From positions 2,790,001 through 2,854,000 of the forward strand of contig NZ_CP028426.1 in NCBI RefSeq assembly GCF_003010915.2: a DNA stretch of 64,000 nt, in the 5' to 3' direction. The translations under genes and the position numbers were made by a program. Below the pieces are notes generated by a model, which ran no database searches, was not told the DNA's origin, and saw only the letters and a list, made by a program, of their open reading frames with translations. The stretch comes from Gulosibacter molinativorax. Lineage in GTDB: Bacteria > Actinomycetota > Actinomycetes > Actinomycetales > Microbacteriaceae. Each line of letters opens with the position of its first letter. The stretch's first letter is position 1. Positions 25,899 to 64,000 of the stretch are shown piece by piece.

Positions 25899-26053
25899 GG
25901 TCCTAGACTAGGCCCGGCACGGGATGCTGGTGTGTCGGGCGAGCTGGTGCGGATGTGAGGGTGATTTTGCGCTCCGTTCGGGCCTTTGTCTGGCCTGATT
26001 TGCGAATGCGTTTTTATGTAGCTATGCTAGATCAGTCGCCAGCACGGCGGCCT

Positions 26054-26126
26054 GCGCCTGTGGCTCAATGGATAGAGCATCTGACTACGGATCAGAAGGT
26101 TGGGGGTTCGAGTCCCTCCAGGCGCA
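26054..26126 (+). tRNA. tRNA-Arg (anticodon ACG), prophage insertion site
   Basis: 73-nt tRNA: acceptor GCGCCTG with CAGGCGC, discriminator A, anticodon stem TCTGA/TCAGA and loop CTACGGA, T-arm GGGGG-TTCGAGT-CCCTC. No CCA is encoded. Its 3' half overlaps the 3' end of the prophage repressor gene on the other strand. Confidence 0.97.
26092..26126. other. Left attachment site (attL) region of the prophage
   Basis: Phage genes begin immediately after tRNA-Arg, and the repressor reading frame continues into the tRNA to a stop at 26092-26094. The phage must carry a copy of the tRNA 3' end, so the core lies within or around this stretch. The exact core cannot be set without attR, which is outside the window. 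Confidence 0.7.
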
Positions 26127-26397
26127 CGTTACGCCCCTCGCCCTCACCGGCGGGGGGCGTTTTTTGCTTTCCGAAGAGTGATTCGATGCTGACTCCGAGG
26201 ACATCGGCAAAGAGGGCGATGTCGTTCGGGTCGAGGGGTGTGGCCCCGGAAGCGCGGCGGTTTACCCAGGTGGGTTGTACGCCTAGTCGGTTGGCGAGTT
26301 TGCGGCCGCTCCAACGCTGGCGCGCCATTTCAGCGCGAATATTGTCGGCAACCACAGTATTCCAGTCTGTCGCGTGGTGGTTTTGCGGGGTAGTCAT
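26092..26397 (-). CDS. XRE-family prophage repressor, 3' end inside attL/tRNA-Arg
   Basis: Probable immunity repressor of 101 residues. The HTH covers about residues 20-70 (SGRKLANRLGVQPTWVNRRA, then ALFADVLGVSIESLFG). The last ten or so residues (RLEGLEPPTF) are encoded by the tRNA-Arg complement, so the C-terminus depends on integration; in the free phage genome the reading frame should continue differently. ATG at 26397 has no Shine-Dalgarno, but TACACT ends six bases before it, consistent with a leaderless mRNA. Divergent from a Cro-like gene. Confidence 0.8.
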   Translation of the reverse strand: MTTPQNHHATDWNTVVADNIRAEMARQRWSGRKLANRLGVQPTWVNRRASGATPLDPNDIALFADVLGVSIESLFGKQKTPPAGEGEGRNVRLEGLEPPTF

Positions 26398-26415
26398 GCC
26401 TCTAGTGTAGCGATA

Positions 26416-26430
26416 TTGCGCCCAGCGCAA
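26416..26430. promoter_or_regulatory. Candidate repressor operator
   Basis: Inverted repeat TTGCGC-CCA-GCGCAA in the 131-bp gap between the divergent repressor and Cro-like genes, overlapping the presumed -35 region of the repressor promoter. Size and position suit an XRE dimer. Confidence 0.55.
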
Positions 26431-26492
26431 CAGAGTTTGTACGAATGAAACAAAAAACGGCTCGCAATGACGCGACACGCGGTGTGTTGGAT

Positions 26493-26521
26493 TTGCACTG
26501 AATCAAAATGTGATCCAAGAT
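26493..26521 (+). promoter_or_regulatory. Candidate early rightward promoter
   Basis: TTGCAC at 26493-26498 and CAAGAT at 26516-26521 are separated by 17 bp. The -10 ends 7 bp before ATG 26529, so transcription may start at or next to the start codon. Confidence 0.45.
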
Positions 26522-26528
26522 GGAACAC

Positions 26529-26747
26529 ATGACGAGCAAACGAATCGCAGCAGAGGTCAGGGCAATCATCGCCAGAGACCAGCTCTCACAGTCAGTCGTC
26601 GCAAAAGCTGCGAACCTCTCGGACTCCCAGTTCTCGCGACGACTCAACGGCCACATCCCCTTCAGCGCGGATGAGGTCGCGGCCATCGCCAAGGCGATCG
26701 GCACCAACGTATCCGTCCTGTACGGAGAGACCGCCTACGCGGCATAA
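26529..26747 (+). CDS. Cro-like XRE-family HTH protein
   Basis: Small DNA-binding protein of 72 residues (75 if the ATG at 26520 is used). The HTH is SQSVVAKAANLSDSQFSRRL followed by FSADEVAAIAKAIG. It is divergent from the repressor, the place of Cro in lambda-like switches, so it probably turns down the repressor in lytic growth. No Shine-Dalgarno; a leaderless start at 26529 fits the promoter spacing. Confidence 0.8.
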   Translation: MTSKRIAAEVRAIIARDQLSQSVVAKAANLSDSQFSRRLNGHIPFSADEVAAIAKAIGTNVSVLYGETAYAA

Positions 26748-26752
26748 GAAAA

Positions 26753-26780
26753 GCTCCCGCGCAGGATCAGTGCCGGGAGC
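26753..26780 (+). other. Leader hairpin before an early gene
   Basis: 7-bp stem GCTCCCG/CGGGAGC directly after the Cro-like gene and 26 bp before the next start. It belongs with similar GC-rich hairpins at 29380, 38790, 40337 and 46496 in the prophage. Confidence 0.5.
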
Positions 26781-26806
26781 ACGGATCGCCTTAGAAGGAG
26801 GCAACC

Positions 26807-27163
26807 ATGTTCAATTCTACTCCCGATGCCCAGGTTGGTGCGATGTGGGCTGGCGCCGATGTCGCGTCGCCTGCGGTGCGTGACGGCATCGATCGTGTCC
26901 AGTCGGAGCACTGGGCGGCGCGTAGCGCGGAGATCATCGGCCGCATCGGCGCTGATGCGGGCCGCGGTTTGGGTACGTCGCTTGGCACGATTCTTGAGCG
27001 TTCGCGGTCGTCGCGTCGTTCGCCGTTCCTCCCTGGTCGCGCCGTCTACAGGGACGAGTCGCGTGGGGTCACCGCGGTCTGTGACTCGCAGCGCGACGAG
27101 GACTGGGACGACCACATGTGGGACGTGGACCGCATGCAGCATGAAGCGGAAGGGGCCAACTGA
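26807..27163 (+). CDS. Hypothetical phage protein
   Basis: Not recognised; 118 residues, hydrophilic, Arg-rich middle (RSRSSRRSPF) and acidic C-terminus (DEDWDDHMWDVDRMQHE). Preceded by an excellent ribosome site (AAGGAGG). The stop overlaps the next start in TGATG, so it is coupled to the excisionase-like gene. Confidence 0.7.
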   Translation: MFNSTPDAQVGAMWAGADVASPAVRDGIDRVQSEHWAARSAEIIGRIGADAGRGLGTSLGTILERSRSSRRSPFLPGRAVYRDESRGVTAVCDSQRDEDWDDHMWDVDRMQHEAEGAN

Positions 27164-28051: not shown

Positions 28052-28870
28052 GTGAACGACATCACGCCATTCAGTTTCGAGTCGCACGAGGTGCGCGTCG
28101 TCACGATCGACAACGATGTGTGGTTCGTCGCGAAGGACGTCGCCGTGGCACTCGGTTACTCGAACCACTCTGAGGCGATTAGCCGCCACTGCCGTGGGGT
28201 CGTGAAACGCTACCCCATCCAAGACGCCCTCGGTCGCGGTCAAGATGTCCGCGTGATCGCTGAGTCGGATGTGATGCGCCTCATCGTGTCGAGCAAGCTC
28301 CCCTCCGCGGTGGAATTCGAGCGGAAGGTGTTCGAGGAGATCCTCCCATCGGTCCGGAAGCACGGCGCGTATCTCACGGACGCGAAGATCGAAGAGGTTC
28401 TCTCGGACCCGGACACGATCATTCGTCTCGCTACTGAGCTCAAGAACGAACGCGCGGCGAATAAAGCGCTCGAGGTTCGTGCGGAAGCGGCGGAGGGGAC
28501 CGTGAAGGCGATCGAGTCGCAGGACGGCATCACGCTGCGCGAATTCCACAAGCACTATTTCTCAGATGTGCCAGAGCGGAAGTTCTTCGACTTTCTCTAC
28601 GCGCAGGGGTACCTCATCGATCAGCGTGGCGCTCGCGGTCGAGACGACAACGGGAAGCTCAAGAACGGGAAGCAACATCAGCACCCCTCGTACATCGGGA
28701 AGCAATGGGTGTACCTCCACGGCGCGACTGACGAAGAAGGCATTCGACGAGAACGGCCGAGGGTGCGTCCTGGAAAGCCGGAGACGAACTTTGCCCGGCA
28801 TCTCGCTGAGAAGGGGATGCCGCTCAACCCGATGGCAGCACGACACATCTATAAGGACGGACTTTTCTAA
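28052..28870 (+). CDS. Phage antirepressor (Bro-N domain)
   Basis: 272 residues. The N-terminal Bro domain is clear: VRVVTIDNDVWFVAKDVAVA, LGYSNHSEAI and VFEEILPSVRKHGAYL. A helical linker (residues 110-150) leads to a C-terminal DNA-binding region ending NPMAARHIYKDGLF. Antirepressors of this type bind the phage repressor or operator to promote lytic growth. GTG start overlaps the end of the plus-strand frame before it. Confidence 0.85.
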   Translation: MNDITPFSFESHEVRVVTIDNDVWFVAKDVAVALGYSNHSEAISRHCRGVVKRYPIQDALGRGQDVRVIAESDVMRLIVSSKLPSAVEFERKVFEEILPSVRKHGAYLTDAKIEEVLSDPDTIIRLATELKNERAANKALEVRAEAAEGTVKAIESQDGITLREFHKHYFSDVPERKFFDFLYAQGYLIDQRGARGRDDNGKLKNGKQHQHPSYIGKQWVYLHGATDEEGIRRERPRVRPGKPETNFARHLAEKGMPLNPMAARHIYKDGLF

Positions 28871-29620: not shown

Positions 29621-29988
29621 GCGACGACATCGTAACGCTCGACCTGGACGACCTCATGCGGTACGCCCGTGATGCCTACAAGCGAGAAGGCGTCACGTTC
29701 CGTGCCGGGTTCATGCGGGAGCAGATCAGTAAAGCGCTCGAACTCCTCGGGCCAGCGCGCACCGTGAAGGCCATCGACCGGATGTTGCGCGACGAGGTGG
29801 GCACGATCCCACCGACCCGACCGGGAACCGCGAACGCAAAGAAGGTGGCGCGAGTCGCCGCCGAAGAACATGCGCGCCGAAACGATCCCGTGCTTGCAGA
29901 GATGCTGGCGCGACAGAAGCGCCGCGAGCAAGCATTCCGCGGGCTCGACCGAGTGATGCGCGAAACGCCGTCAGGGAGATACGAGTGA
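29617..29988 (+). CDS. Hypothetical phage protein
   Basis: Not recognised; 123 residues, strongly helical and basic (ARVAAEEHARRNDPVLAEML, RQKRREQAFRGLDRVM). The N-half REQISKALELLGPARTVKAI could be an HTH. Coupled by four-base overlaps on both sides. Confidence 0.65.
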   Translation: MSDDIVTLDLDDLMRYARDAYKREGVTFRAGFMREQISKALELLGPARTVKAIDRMLRDEVGTIPPTRPGTANAKKVARVAAEEHARRNDPVLAEMLARQKRREQAFRGLDRVMRETPSGRYE

Positions 29989-30737
29989 ACGAGATGATCC
30001 AGACCATCGAAGGCGAGCTGCGGATCTCATCGGAGATCATCGCGGAGCGCACCGGCAACCAGCACAAGAACGTGCTCGAGCTAGTCAGAAACAACCGGGC
30101 CGACTTGGAAGCGTTTGGGGAGGTCGCGTTTGAAACGCGAGCTGGCTACAACAACGCGAAGGTGACAGTCGCGCACCTCAACGAGCAGCAGTCCACGCTG
30201 GTCACCACGTACATGCGCAACAGCGAGATCGTGCGGGCGTTCAAGCTCGAGCTAGTCAAACAGTTCTACGAGATGCGGAAGGCGCTCACTGCCCCGGCTC
30301 GGGAACTGTCACCGCAAGAACTCATGGCGCGTGCCGTGCTCGAAGCGAACCGACAACTCAAGGCACTTGAGGCAACCGTGGCGGAGGTCATGCCGAAGGC
30401 GAACGCCTGGGATCACATCGTGAACAGTGCGGGCTCGTGGTCCTACAACGATGCGGCGAAGGTGCTCTTCGAGCAGGGCGTCGCGCAGGTCGGCGAGAAG
30501 CGTCTCGCGCGCGACCTCGTGACGTGGGGATACCTCTACCGAGATCACAAGGGCCGCCCTCACGTCTACCAGCGCTACCTCGAGCAGGGGCTCTTCGCCA
30601 CGAAGGCGCGCGTCTACACCGACCAGGTGAGCGGCGAGACACGCGAATCATCCGCACCGCAAGTGCGCATCACCGGCAAGGGGCTGGACATGCTCTTTCG
30701 CCGCTACCGAGCGAACGAACTAGAAGGAGTCGCGTAA
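29985..30737 (+). CDS. Rha-type phage regulatory protein with KilAC/ANT domain
   Basis: 250 residues. The N-terminal Rha domain shows ISSEIIAERTGNQHKNVLEL, FGEVAFETRAGYNNAK and AHLNEQQSTLVTTYMRNSE; the C-terminal ANT/KilAC domain shows WSYNDAAKVLFEQGVAQVG and DLVTWGYLYRDHKGRPHVY. Such proteins are antirepressors or lytic-switch regulators. It is the second antirepressor in 3 kb. GTG start overlaps the previous stop. Confidence 0.85.
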   Translation: MNEMIQTIEGELRISSEIIAERTGNQHKNVLELVRNNRADLEAFGEVAFETRAGYNNAKVTVAHLNEQQSTLVTTYMRNSEIVRAFKLELVKQFYEMRKALTAPARELSPQELMARAVLEANRQLKALEATVAEVMPKANAWDHIVNSAGSWSYNDAAKVLFEQGVAQVGEKRLARDLVTWGYLYRDHKGRPHVYQRYLEQGLFATKARVYTDQVSGETRESSAPQVRITGKGLDMLFRRYRANELEGVA

Positions 30738-45552: not shown

Positions 45553-45736
45553 GCGCGTGATCTGGGAGGCATCCTCCCTGCCGTACCTCGTGCAGGAGCG
45601 GCGCTGGTGGTGGTGGCGAAAAGTCGCCCGGTTCGAGATGCAGGGCAGTGCCGAGAACGACGCGATCGCGCGGGCGAAAACGGGGGCGTACACGAGGGTG
45701 GTGAGGTATGACGGACTATCGGCAGATTATTCGTGA
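45545..45736 (+). CDS. Small hypothetical phage protein
   Basis: 63 residues with an unusual RRWWWWRKVARFEMQG stretch. GTG start overlaps the previous stop. Not recognised. Confidence 0.5.
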   Translation: MTERVIWEASSLPYLVQERRWWWWRKVARFEMQGSAENDAIARAKTGAYTRVVRYDGLSADYS

Positions 45737-46460
45737 CGTGCCGGAGCTTGCCGCGAAGCTCGCGGGGCAGATCATCCCGAGCAGTGAGCCGGGTGACGGG
45801 CAGCCGCGCGGGAGTAACCGGCCTGACGCGGCTCGTGTGGTCGCAATCGATGAACTCGACCGGCTGTTTCGGGAGATCGGGCAGTCGGTCAGGTTCTGGC
45901 AGCAGGCGTTCTCGACGGAGTGGGAACTGTTGCCGGTCCCGTCGATTGTGGATGTGGTGACCGCACCGAGGTACACCCGGAGCGTGGCGGACGACCCGCT
46001 CGCGGCGGCAAGAGACATCCAGCCAGCCGTGGACTGGCTCCTCGCCCAATGGGCAGACGCTGAGGGGCACCCGCTGCACGACTATTGGCTAGCGGGCCTG
46101 GACGAGTGGCTTGTCCCCGCGGTACGTCGGCTGGAGGTTCGGGAGATCGCGCAGCGCCCGAGGCGGTGCATGGTCTGCTCAGCACTCGACACGTGGGCGG
46201 ACACGGAGCATGCCAGCGCCGTGTGCGAGACGTGCGGGGCGGTGATGCGTGCCGAGGTGTGGCTGTCGGTGCGGGAGGCCGCGAAACGCCTGGACGTGGA
46301 CGTTCGCACCGTGCAGCGTTGGGTAGCGGGTGACCTCGTGGAGCACCGCAAGTCAGGCCGCACGAACCAGGTCGAGTGGGGTTCGTGCAGGGAGCATCAC
46401 GAGATGGCGGTAGCGCGCGCGAAACTCAACCTCATCCAATCCCCGAATGTCGCCACCTAG
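45708..46460 (+). CDS. Zinc-ribbon and HTH DNA-binding protein, end of the early operon
   Basis: 250 residues. Helical N-half (YRQIIRDVPELAAKLAGQII, DELDRLFREIGQSVRFWQQA), a zinc ribbon at about 160-185 (RCMVCSALDTWADTEHASAV, CETCG) and a MerR-like HTH at about 190-230 (SVREAAKRLDVDVRTVQRWV, AGDLVEHRKSGRTNQVEWG). Being the last gene before the late region, it could be the late-gene activator; this is inference. Confidence 0.7.
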   Translation: MTDYRQIIRDVPELAAKLAGQIIPSSEPGDGQPRGSNRPDAARVVAIDELDRLFREIGQSVRFWQQAFSTEWELLPVPSIVDVVTAPRYTRSVADDPLAAARDIQPAVDWLLAQWADAEGHPLHDYWLAGLDEWLVPAVRRLEVREIAQRPRRCMVCSALDTWADTEHASAVCETCGAVMRAEVWLSVREAAKRLDVDVRTVQRWVAGDLVEHRKSGRTNQVEWGSCREHHEMAVARAKLNLIQSPNVAT

Positions 46461-46683: not shown

Positions 46684-46765
46684 GCTCTCGTGGCGAAATG
46701 GTAAACGCGCTGGATTCAAGACCCGGTGCCCGAAGGGCGTGCAAGTTCGAGTCCTGCCGGGAGCA
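46684..46765 (+). tRNA. Phage-encoded tRNA-Leu (anticodon CAA)
   Basis: 82 nt. Acceptor GCTCTCG with CGGGAGC (one G-T pair), D-arm TGGCGAAATGGTAAACGCG, anticodon loop TTCAAGA, class II variable arm (GCCC/GGGC), T-loop TTCGAGT, discriminator A. The anticodon stem and T-stem each have one mismatch, common in phage tRNAs. It reads UUG. Confidence 0.85.
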
Positions 46766-46775
46766 CGGAGGCATC

Positions 46776-62968: not shown

Positions 62969-63417
62969 TTGGTTGTCTATTCCGGTTATGTTGCGACTCC
63001 GGCGAATGAGGTGCATTCGACGTCGCTCAAGCCTCGGTTGGAGGTGCGTTTGTTGGAGGCGTGTCACCACGGGGGACCCTTGTCAATACGGAGACGAAGC
63101 TGGTGGATGTCGCGTCTTCGGGTGCGTATTCGGTGGATTTGATCCCTAGCGAGCAGTTGCGCTCGCGGTCTGGCGCTCTCGCCTTGTACGAGGTTGCCGA
63201 GTCGTGGCTCGGCGAGGGTGGGCAGCCTGTGAAACGGTCGGAGTGGGGCACGTTCTATTTGCGTGCGTCGGGTGGGTCCTTGTCTGATCACGCGCAGTTC
63301 CCTGCCAGGGTTGGCGCGGTTTTCGTGCAGGAGGCTGACCCGGCGACGCAGGGCGCGGTCGCGAGGAACAGTATTTGGTTGCGCCCTTCGACGGGGCAGA
63401 TTCGGAGGATGGACTAA
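62969..63417 (+). pseudogene. Frameshifted minor tail protein gene
   Basis: TTG at 62969 with AAGGAGA upstream begins MVVYSGYVATPANEVHSTSL and continues to VRLLEA, then the frame degenerates into CHHGGPLSIRRRSWW. One base later the other frame gives SPRGTLVNTETKLVDVASSG and runs normally to 63417. A single missing base near 63059-63063 (GGAGGC-GTGTCA) explains both halves; restored length is about 149 residues. GTG at 63061 could start the second half alone. Real mutation or sequence error cannot be told apart. Confidence 0.7.
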
Positions 63418-64000
63418 TGCCGTGGACTCTCGTAGGGCAGATCGCGGCGGTGACGGATCAGGACATGGCGTCGAAGCTCTCTGCGCCTACTGCGTCGCGG
63501 TCTGCGGTGGATGCGCGTATTCGTGTCCAGGCTGAGGGCATGGTTGGCGATGTGATCGCGTCGAACCCTGAGGTGACTCAGGCGGTGATCGACGGTATTA
63601 ATGCCGATCCGCTGCTGCTTGGCGAGTTGTCGTATTACAAGGGGCAGGCGACGGCAGATAGCCTCGATTCTCTGCCGGGTGGTACGCATTGGATCTCTAC
63701 CGCAAAGGCGACCGAAATGGGCCTCCCAGCCGCGGGCTCGTTACTGCTCGTTAACCGGGATAGTTCATACAAAACAGCGGTTCTCGTCGCGCTGAACCCG
63801 ACTCGGGTTTGGGCTGCGGATCGTAACGGCGCCGCTGGATGGTCCAGCTTCAGTGAAGTCACATCTCGTGTTCGGCAACTCACCACTGAGAATCTGGATA
63901 CGCTCACGACAACCGGAAGTTTTTACCAGAACTCGCCAACGTTTGCGACAAGCGAACGCAACTACCCGTTCCCAACGATGTGCACCATCGACGTGAAACC
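63417..64000 (+). CDS. Tail fibre-like protein, N-terminal part
   Basis: Runs off the window; 194 residues visible. N-terminus PWTLVGQIAAVTDQDMASKL, helical, then a beta-rich region and a pyocin-knob-like stretch (TGSFYQNSPTFATSERNYPF). Such knobs in fibres bind host surface sugars. Starts in a TAATG overlap with the previous gene. Confidence 0.72.
   Translation, partial: MPWTLVGQIAAVTDQDMASKLSAPTASRSAVDARIRVQAEGMVGDVIASNPEVTQAVIDGINADPLLLGELSYYKGQATADSLDSLPGGTHWISTAKATEMGLPAAGSLLLVNRDSSYKTAVLVALNPTRVWAADRNGAAGWSSFSEVTSRVRQLTTENLDTLTTTGSFYQNSPTFATSERNYPFPTMCTIDVK

Follow-up and report, generated by a model that had tools for sequence, protein, structure and literature searches.

The window analyzed here is a stretch of 64,000 nucleotides (C1:2790001-2854000) of a 3.50-Mb genome and contains the left end of a prophage together with the host gene into which it is inserted. 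ARAGORN places a tRNA-Arg(ACG) gene at 26054-26127 on the plus strand, the 3' part of which forms the attachment core. A genome search with 29 bp from the 3' end of the tRNA yielded a second mismatch-free copy at C1:2858557-2858585 and a third place with 3 mismatches. When the repeat was extended outward from the 29-bp stretch, an identical core of 37 bp was obtained, located at 26093-26129 and, as a copy of the tRNA-Arg 3' end, at C1:2858552-2858588 (L018:6552-6588). The distance between the two cores is 42,459 bp (~42.5 kb). A tRNA was also looked for at the right prophage end and was absent. Because the right end is without a tRNA, its core copy was assigned to attR, and the left copy to attL. 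The phage attB overlaps the host tRNA gene, and integration rebuilds an intact tRNA-Arg(ACG) at attL only, in agreement with a preliminary description of the stretch that had named tRNA-Arg as attB.

Next to attL, the minus strand encodes an XRE immunity repressor whose prophage form has 101 aa, running from an ATG at 26397 to a stop at 26092 (26092-26397). Its last codons are within the complement of tRNA-Arg(ACG), as the preliminary description had noticed. HTH_31 matched the repressor above the Pfam cut-off (E 2e-6, with the 131-aa form described below being scanned). A divergent Cro-like HTH gene of 75 aa, also recognized earlier, occupies 26520-26747 on the plus strand and was identified as an ORF, by Pfam and by PHROGs; its product shows a weak likeness to the repressor (26% identity over 62 aa). 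The intergenic control region at 26398-26519 contains an imperfect 16-nt inverted repeat (26405-26420 and 26463-26478), which is a candidate operator. No sigma-70-like site was detected in a promoter scan of 26000-26900. A terminator-like site at 26462-26475 on the minus strand, weaker than the hairpin treated further below, consists of 5 pairs followed by GCCGTTTTTT; it is intergenic and points toward the repressor. An intact second repressor controlling immunity, which the preliminary description had raised as a counter-possibility, was not found: at E <= 0.001 the Cro-like gene was the sole HTH_3 match in the prophage, HTH_31 matched it and the repressor alone, and Peptidase_S24 gave no match, a search by three Pfam families that a CI-like repressor of another fold could escape. 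Near the Cro-like gene, two antirepressor-like genes (Bro-N/Ant and Rha/KilAC) are located at 28052-28870 and 29985-30737, odd companions for a switch that excision would reverse.

The Pfam family PF00589 (Phage_integrase) matched 13 places in the genome. None of them is situated between positions 26130 and 64000 of the window, and the earlier statement that this part of the prophage has no integrase holds for tyrosine integrases. The match belonging to the prophage was found at C1:2857652-2858068 on the minus strand, 3.65 kb past the window end, where it adjoins attR; attR and int thus both turned up beyond 64000, where the preliminary description had suggested looking for them. The integrase gene begins at L018:6464 and encodes, without an internal stop, 285 aa with the C terminus LPRAA. 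It is 51% identical to the integrase of Curtobacterium phage Barebow and 46% identical over 93% to cluster G integrases (Angel). Only the catalytic domain (Phage_integrase) was matched by Pfam, by which alone an arm-binding domain appears to be absent. Elsewhere in the prophage, a 250-aa protein at 45708-46460 has in its C-terminal part a weak match (E 7e-4) to a family of recombination directionality factors; the available part of PMC9262239 states that integration-dependent systems are without such a factor.

attP was rebuilt in silico from the attR phage arm, the core, and the attL phage arm. In the rebuilt attP the repressor ORF remains open across the 37-bp core, which therefore lies inside the repressor gene, and the virion repressor has 131 aa, consisting of the 101-aa prophage sequence followed by C-SVVDITQNNTDAPEIDNPNPVITLFPRAS. 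The 101-aa form ends with LEPPTF*, whereas the 131-aa form reads LEPPTF-C-SVVDITQ…LFPRAS. The two forms part at the codon after TTC, which is TGA at attL (26092-26094, minus strand) and TGT at attP. In this junction stop, TG belongs to the core and A is the host base at 26092, whereas the attR phage arm supplies TGT (Cys), and a single host base converts Cys into a stop. The preliminary description had expected a longer repressor with a small hydrophobic tail from the rebuilt attP, and a repressor of 131 instead of 101 aa was indeed obtained, ending with -RAS much as Angel gp33 ends with -KAS. It had also considered that the stop could lie inside the shared core, making both forms identical; this is narrowly not the case, with two stop bases being core and the third being contributed by the host. 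The stop of the virion repressor and the int ATG share 4 nt (ATGA).

The antisense strand of tRNA-Arg(ACG) closes any ORF in the repressor frame with EPPTF* or EPLTF*, and empty host tRNA-Arg sites also end spurious ORFs in this way (M. franklinii L144; RM44 C8). The overlap with the antisense tRNA is therefore weak evidence by itself. The arrangement is raised above chance by the exact 37-bp repeat 42.5 kb away, by the tail running in frame as far as int, and by the recurrence of the pairing in other genomes. A protein database contained four relatives of the 131-aa repressor, one of which (P0002) is its own short form. The closest known relative, P0001, is 83% identical over 73% and also reads EPPTFC, and it ends with SAIK; P0003 and P0004 end with QLRA and QVTA, and none of these three long relatives has an [AV][AS] end. 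Thirty-nine phage records matching the repressor were left unused, since most of them are different HTH genes lying on the other strand.

The closest described counterpart is the system of mycobacteriophage BPs and cluster G. According to the part of PMC9262239 at hand, tRNA-Arg is the attB of BPs too, and one host base turns a Cys codon into TGA. The available part of PMC4557955 reports that BPs gp33 occurs in forms of 136 and 103 residues, that A135E stabilises gp33, and that gp33-136 and gp33-103 bind DNA alike, so that the tail does not block binding. Sequence facts on BPs were taken here from its relative Angel, whose gp33 has 136 aa and ends with …LDKAS. BPs gp33 presumably ends likewise, which would make the Ala of the -KAS end the site of A135E. 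The cluster G phages (Angel and Sneeze, with gp32 as integrase and gp33 as repressor) resemble the prophage in the tRNA-Arg attB and the attP core inside the repressor, features given in the accessible portion of the literature, as well as in a tail of ~30 residues ending with -[KR]AS and in the divergent gene beside the repressor. With Angel the prophage shares a 4-nt overlap of repressor and int (GTGA in Angel, ATGA here), and its attP core matches those of Angel and Barebow at 34/37 and 32/37 positions, with an HTH repressor reading EPPTFC across the core in each. Cluster G differs in its host and in the repressor, which is just 36% identical over 76 aa, partly in the stretch coded by the tRNA. 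The integrase also differs from that of Angel in having 285 instead of 398 aa; the C-terminal extension seen in Angel gp32 is absent from it, and it has its own -RAA end. Neither Angel nor Sneeze has the terminator-like antisense hairpin of the present prophage.

Curtobacterium phage Barebow (PQ868957, genes 18-20) carries the closest integrase in the phage collection and has in common with the prophage the EPPTFC core, a -RAS tail, and the antisense hairpin. Unlike the prophage, it is a small phage of 18 kb with a gap of 64 nt between repressor and int, and its repressor is annotated only as an HTH protein. A literature search found no paper naming Barebow. The Gordonia phages UmaThurman, Wizard, and Twister6 likewise have attP in the repressor and tRNA-Arg as attB (PMC4929511; available part of PMC5559632) but differ in host, in the core of Wizard, which is in another frame, and in the tail of UmaThurman, which ends with -IPA. 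The Bifidobacterium prophages Bb423phi2 and 689b-1 differ in having tRNA-Met as attB and a tail of 18 residues and are an integration-dependent immunity case in print, as far as the available part of PMC6109161 goes. For a Streptomyces phage that uses a serine integrase the case is made by synteny (PMC12243558, in part), M. abscessus prophages add literature on other hosts (PMC9934374, in part), and Arthrobacter is a negative case in the portion of PMC5513430 at hand. Integration-dependent immunity has already been described in mycobacteriophages and elsewhere among phages, and the present prophage is a further member. The proposal that a phage of a different host group uses this logic is supported here; its framing as a mycobacterial property is too narrow, given the cases from Gordonia, Bifidobacterium, and, by synteny, Streptomyces. 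In the literature searched, no report of integration-dependent immunity was found for the host group of the present prophage.

A profile scan of genome contigs with an alignment of eight integrases gave 146 confirmed loci, of which 80 were kept. Among 110 loci with a related integrase, 27 had a match resembling the tRNA-Arg core (>= 28/37) near or upstream of int. Eleven genomes from the integrase scan were searched for the tRNA-Arg 3' half, and both sites were read. An attL stop was found paired with an attR tail in 12 other genomes and in two reading frames; the attL ORF has a Pfam HTH domain above the cut-off in 11 of the 12, the exception being Cryobacterium. The codon is TGA at attL and TGG at attR in Curtobacterium sp. 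VKM Ac-1376 (WSVVDQAA), Nakamurella lactea (tail …RRRAS, with the ends on two contigs), and Jiangella muralis (…SRAVA). TGA is paired with TGC in Xylanimicrobium pachnodae (…VDRAA) and with TGT in M. komossense (…GDEVA) and Cryobacterium luteum (…NWELAA), where int is ~0.9 kb from the core and the attL ORF is the one without a Pfam HTH domain. Two contigs of M. franklinii carry the virion form (…PSRAA) and an empty tRNA, respectively. In UBA6152 the core is present together with a tail on the attR side (…LAHV), int being ~1.4 kb away, and the attL contig stops at the tRNA.

In Actinomyces polynesiensis, Rothia nasimurium (two contigs), and the RM44 Microbacterium bin, the repressor is fused in the second frame. 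Here a host TAG stop follows RDSNPQPSDP, the TAG being supplied by the anticodon loop (L159, L163, L136, L142), and the tails of RM44, A. polynesiensis, and Rothia end with -SAS, -RAS, and -LVA, respectively. A reading of these three as unfused relatives was rejected, since frame 0 shows fused HTH repressors; frame 2 is closed or without a repressor. In 299 genomes of the same family (own genome included), a strict pattern matched 66, mostly the tRNA alone, and an attR-type junction beside a tRNA copy was present in the own genome and in G288, G177, and G107. The attL ORFs of the latter three end at TGA, and their tails are RIDRD, RGLA, and GTYA. Among 13 named genomes, the host 16S rRNA is closest to that of the Curtobacterium genome (95%), with 90-93% identity to six further matches of full or near-full length, and the host is therefore probably in or near Microbacteriaceae. 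At another locus (L049), the integrase of Microbacterium phage PensacolaC28 is split in the annotation between two ORFs (genes 17 and 18), which may reflect a broken gene or an error in sequencing. The matched attL/attR pairs indicate that the logic recurs in Microbacteriaceae, Promicromonosporaceae, Nakamurellaceae, and Jiangellaceae, with a shared trick in which the stop codon takes its final base from the tRNA anticodon stem. Repressors and tails vary within the set, but integrase, core, and stop are conserved, which permits tests of the tail ends that act as degrons across hosts.

The C-terminal ends of the attP and attR tails were compared. An A[AS] end was present in 18 of 29 tails and an [AV][AS] end in 22 of 29, compared with 6.1 and 8.1%, respectively, of 1782 six-frame stop-to-stop ORFs of >= 150 aa taken from the loci collected up to that point and the window; these classes were chosen after inspection of the tails, and some rows are close kin (Angel/Sneeze, L034/L035), so that binomial values for these counts can serve as a rough indication only. 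The seven tails without an [AV][AS] end are those of UmaThurman, UBA6152, L171, L175, G288, G177, and G107. The 29 tails exclude six loci with another tRNA type (L036, L037, L052, L053, L083, L119), L069 (core 29/37, TTC-TG junction absent), L172 (tail not open), L058 (from the genome already represented by L159), L167-L170 (known from attL alone), and P0001, P0003, and P0004, which are available as proteins only; inclusion of these three proteins changes the [AV][AS] count to 22/32. For rows with attR only, the frame was set by the EPPTF/EPLTF or RDSN reading, with no attL partner. In a comparison with ssrA-like tags, the prophage has -FPRAS, Angel -DKAS, and Barebow -RRAS, whereas the closest database relative P0001 has -SAIK. 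The degron reading in the present case is based on the -RAS end of the repressor, the -RAA end of the integrase, and BPs, and not on a universal rule.

Judged by its sequence, the prophage is likely to carry a BPs-type cassette for integration-dependent immunity, in which integration into the tRNA-Arg gene cuts off the repressor tail and probably switches immunity on. The mechanism is derived from homology of the parts and identity of the logic with BPs. The phage form has the attP core inside the repressor gene, with the stop of the 131-aa repressor overlapping the start of the 285-aa integrase, and by homology both genes would be co-transcribed leftward. The -RAS and -RAA ends would serve as degrons for a host ClpXP-like protease, and, with -RAS read as a degron, the long repressor would be short-lived. 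Integration into tRNA-Arg(ACG) parts the repressor from the integrase, and the host base, by changing TGT to TGA, leaves the 101-aa repressor. Only the integrated prophage would then make stable repressor, which would shut the rightward lytic promoter and confer immunity, and integrase turnover may set the lysogeny frequency.

Truncation could also occur between two forms that are both stable and active, in which case attP in the repressor would be a harmless compact overlap and no immunity switch. The like DNA binding of gp33-136 and gp33-103 fits such an overlap, as do the tails without an [AV][AS] end (7 of the 29 related tails and all three long database repressors, the closest included). 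The 18 of 29 tails ending with A[AS] against a background of 6.1% argue the other way, as does the likeness of the own -RAS to the destabilising type of BPs together with the independent -RAA end of the own int, and we consider a harmless overlap unlikely. Somewhat less probable still is a switch that once existed in a prophage that is now a decayed remnant. The prophage is known from sequence alone, and the phage collection contained no closely similar phage DNA for 11.9 kb of it. However, the genes for terminase, portal, head protease, major head, tape measure, and endolysin are open, all head, packaging, tail, and lysis genes tested have PHROGs matches, the att cores are identical, and int has no internal stop. 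The EPPTF*/EPLTF* end of any ORF in this frame (L144) and the core-like match in only 27 of 110 related loci speak for an ordinary tRNA-integrating prophage whose repressor runs into the tRNA by chance while another gene governs immunity, but this is highly improbable in view of the in-frame virion tail ending 4 nt inside int, the recurrence of the pairing in 12 genomes besides the own one (with an HTH domain in 11), and the lack of any further HTH_3, HTH_31, or S24 match in the prophage at E 0.001 or better.

Besides the cassette itself, the repressor gene contains a hairpin with a perfect 12-bp stem and a T run behind it at 26131-26160 on the tRNA strand (plus), just past the tRNA and antisense within the repressor coding sequence. 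The opposite strand codes for part of the repressor linker around KTPPAGEGEG. None of 1000 synonymous-codon nulls gave an equally strong hairpin. Among 21 repressor genes with a tRNA-Arg core, 11 have an exceptional hairpin (0 to 4 per 1000 synonymous recodings as strong), the codon usage of the own prophage being applied to all rows: the present prophage, Curtobacterium, Barebow, Xylanimicrobium, Jiangella, UmaThurman, L167, L168, L169, L170, and L173. Against the same nulls the hairpin is unexceptional in the remaining 10, namely Angel, Sneeze, Typha, M. komossense, M. franklinii, Cryobacterium, Nakamurella, L035, L171, and L175. The exceptional hairpins thus occur in 11 of 16 members that are non-mycobacterial or of unknown host, compared with 0 of 5 mycobacterial members. 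An MFE version of the test gave 13/21 at 0/60, adding Nakamurella and Cryobacterium. In the 11 positive cases the distance from the tRNA to the hairpin start is 4 to 22 nt. The number of Ts in the 8 nt after the stem ranges from 6 (own prophage, L167) down to 1 (L168), and some of the hairpins would therefore not be classic terminators.

The host hairpin remains at attR, ~41 nt past the tRNA end. We lean toward the view that the repressor codons before the core encode an antisense intrinsic terminator, so that the invaded tRNA gene would receive a new terminator from the phage. In the lysogen, this linker hairpin would end tRNA-Arg transcription in place of the host hairpin, which integration moves by 42 kb. 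There is a slightly better than even chance that the repressor gene at attP carries in this way a third layer of information in addition to the protein and the tRNA 3' end. If true, the terminator would keep tRNA-Arg transcription from entering the repressor gene needed for lysogeny, explaining how such phages avoid transcription from the invaded tRNA into the repressor, and would help to explain the Pro/Gly-rich linker before EPPTF. No published tRNA-replacing terminator of this sort was found in a search that lay outside the founding 2013 papers, and the word "terminator" is absent from the main text of PMC9262239, PMC4557955, and PMC9934374 in the parts of these articles at hand. Hairpins past the tRNA were also present, counted as raw occurrence, on most host sides and in the three members fused in the second frame (A. 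polynesiensis, Rothia, and RM44); the supply of a terminator may therefore be general to elements entering tRNA-Arg.

Two further observations concern the genome and the prophage interior. C1:160146-161149 (L002) is 85% identical to positions 63000-64000 of the window, which suggests a second related prophage near this place in the same genome. L002 contained no repressor like the 101-aa one, and weak HTH_31 matches were located at C1:165186 and C1:128710. Inside the prophage, ARAGORN detected a tRNA-Leu (CAA) at 46684-46766, which is either a phage-borne tRNA or the relic of another attachment site.
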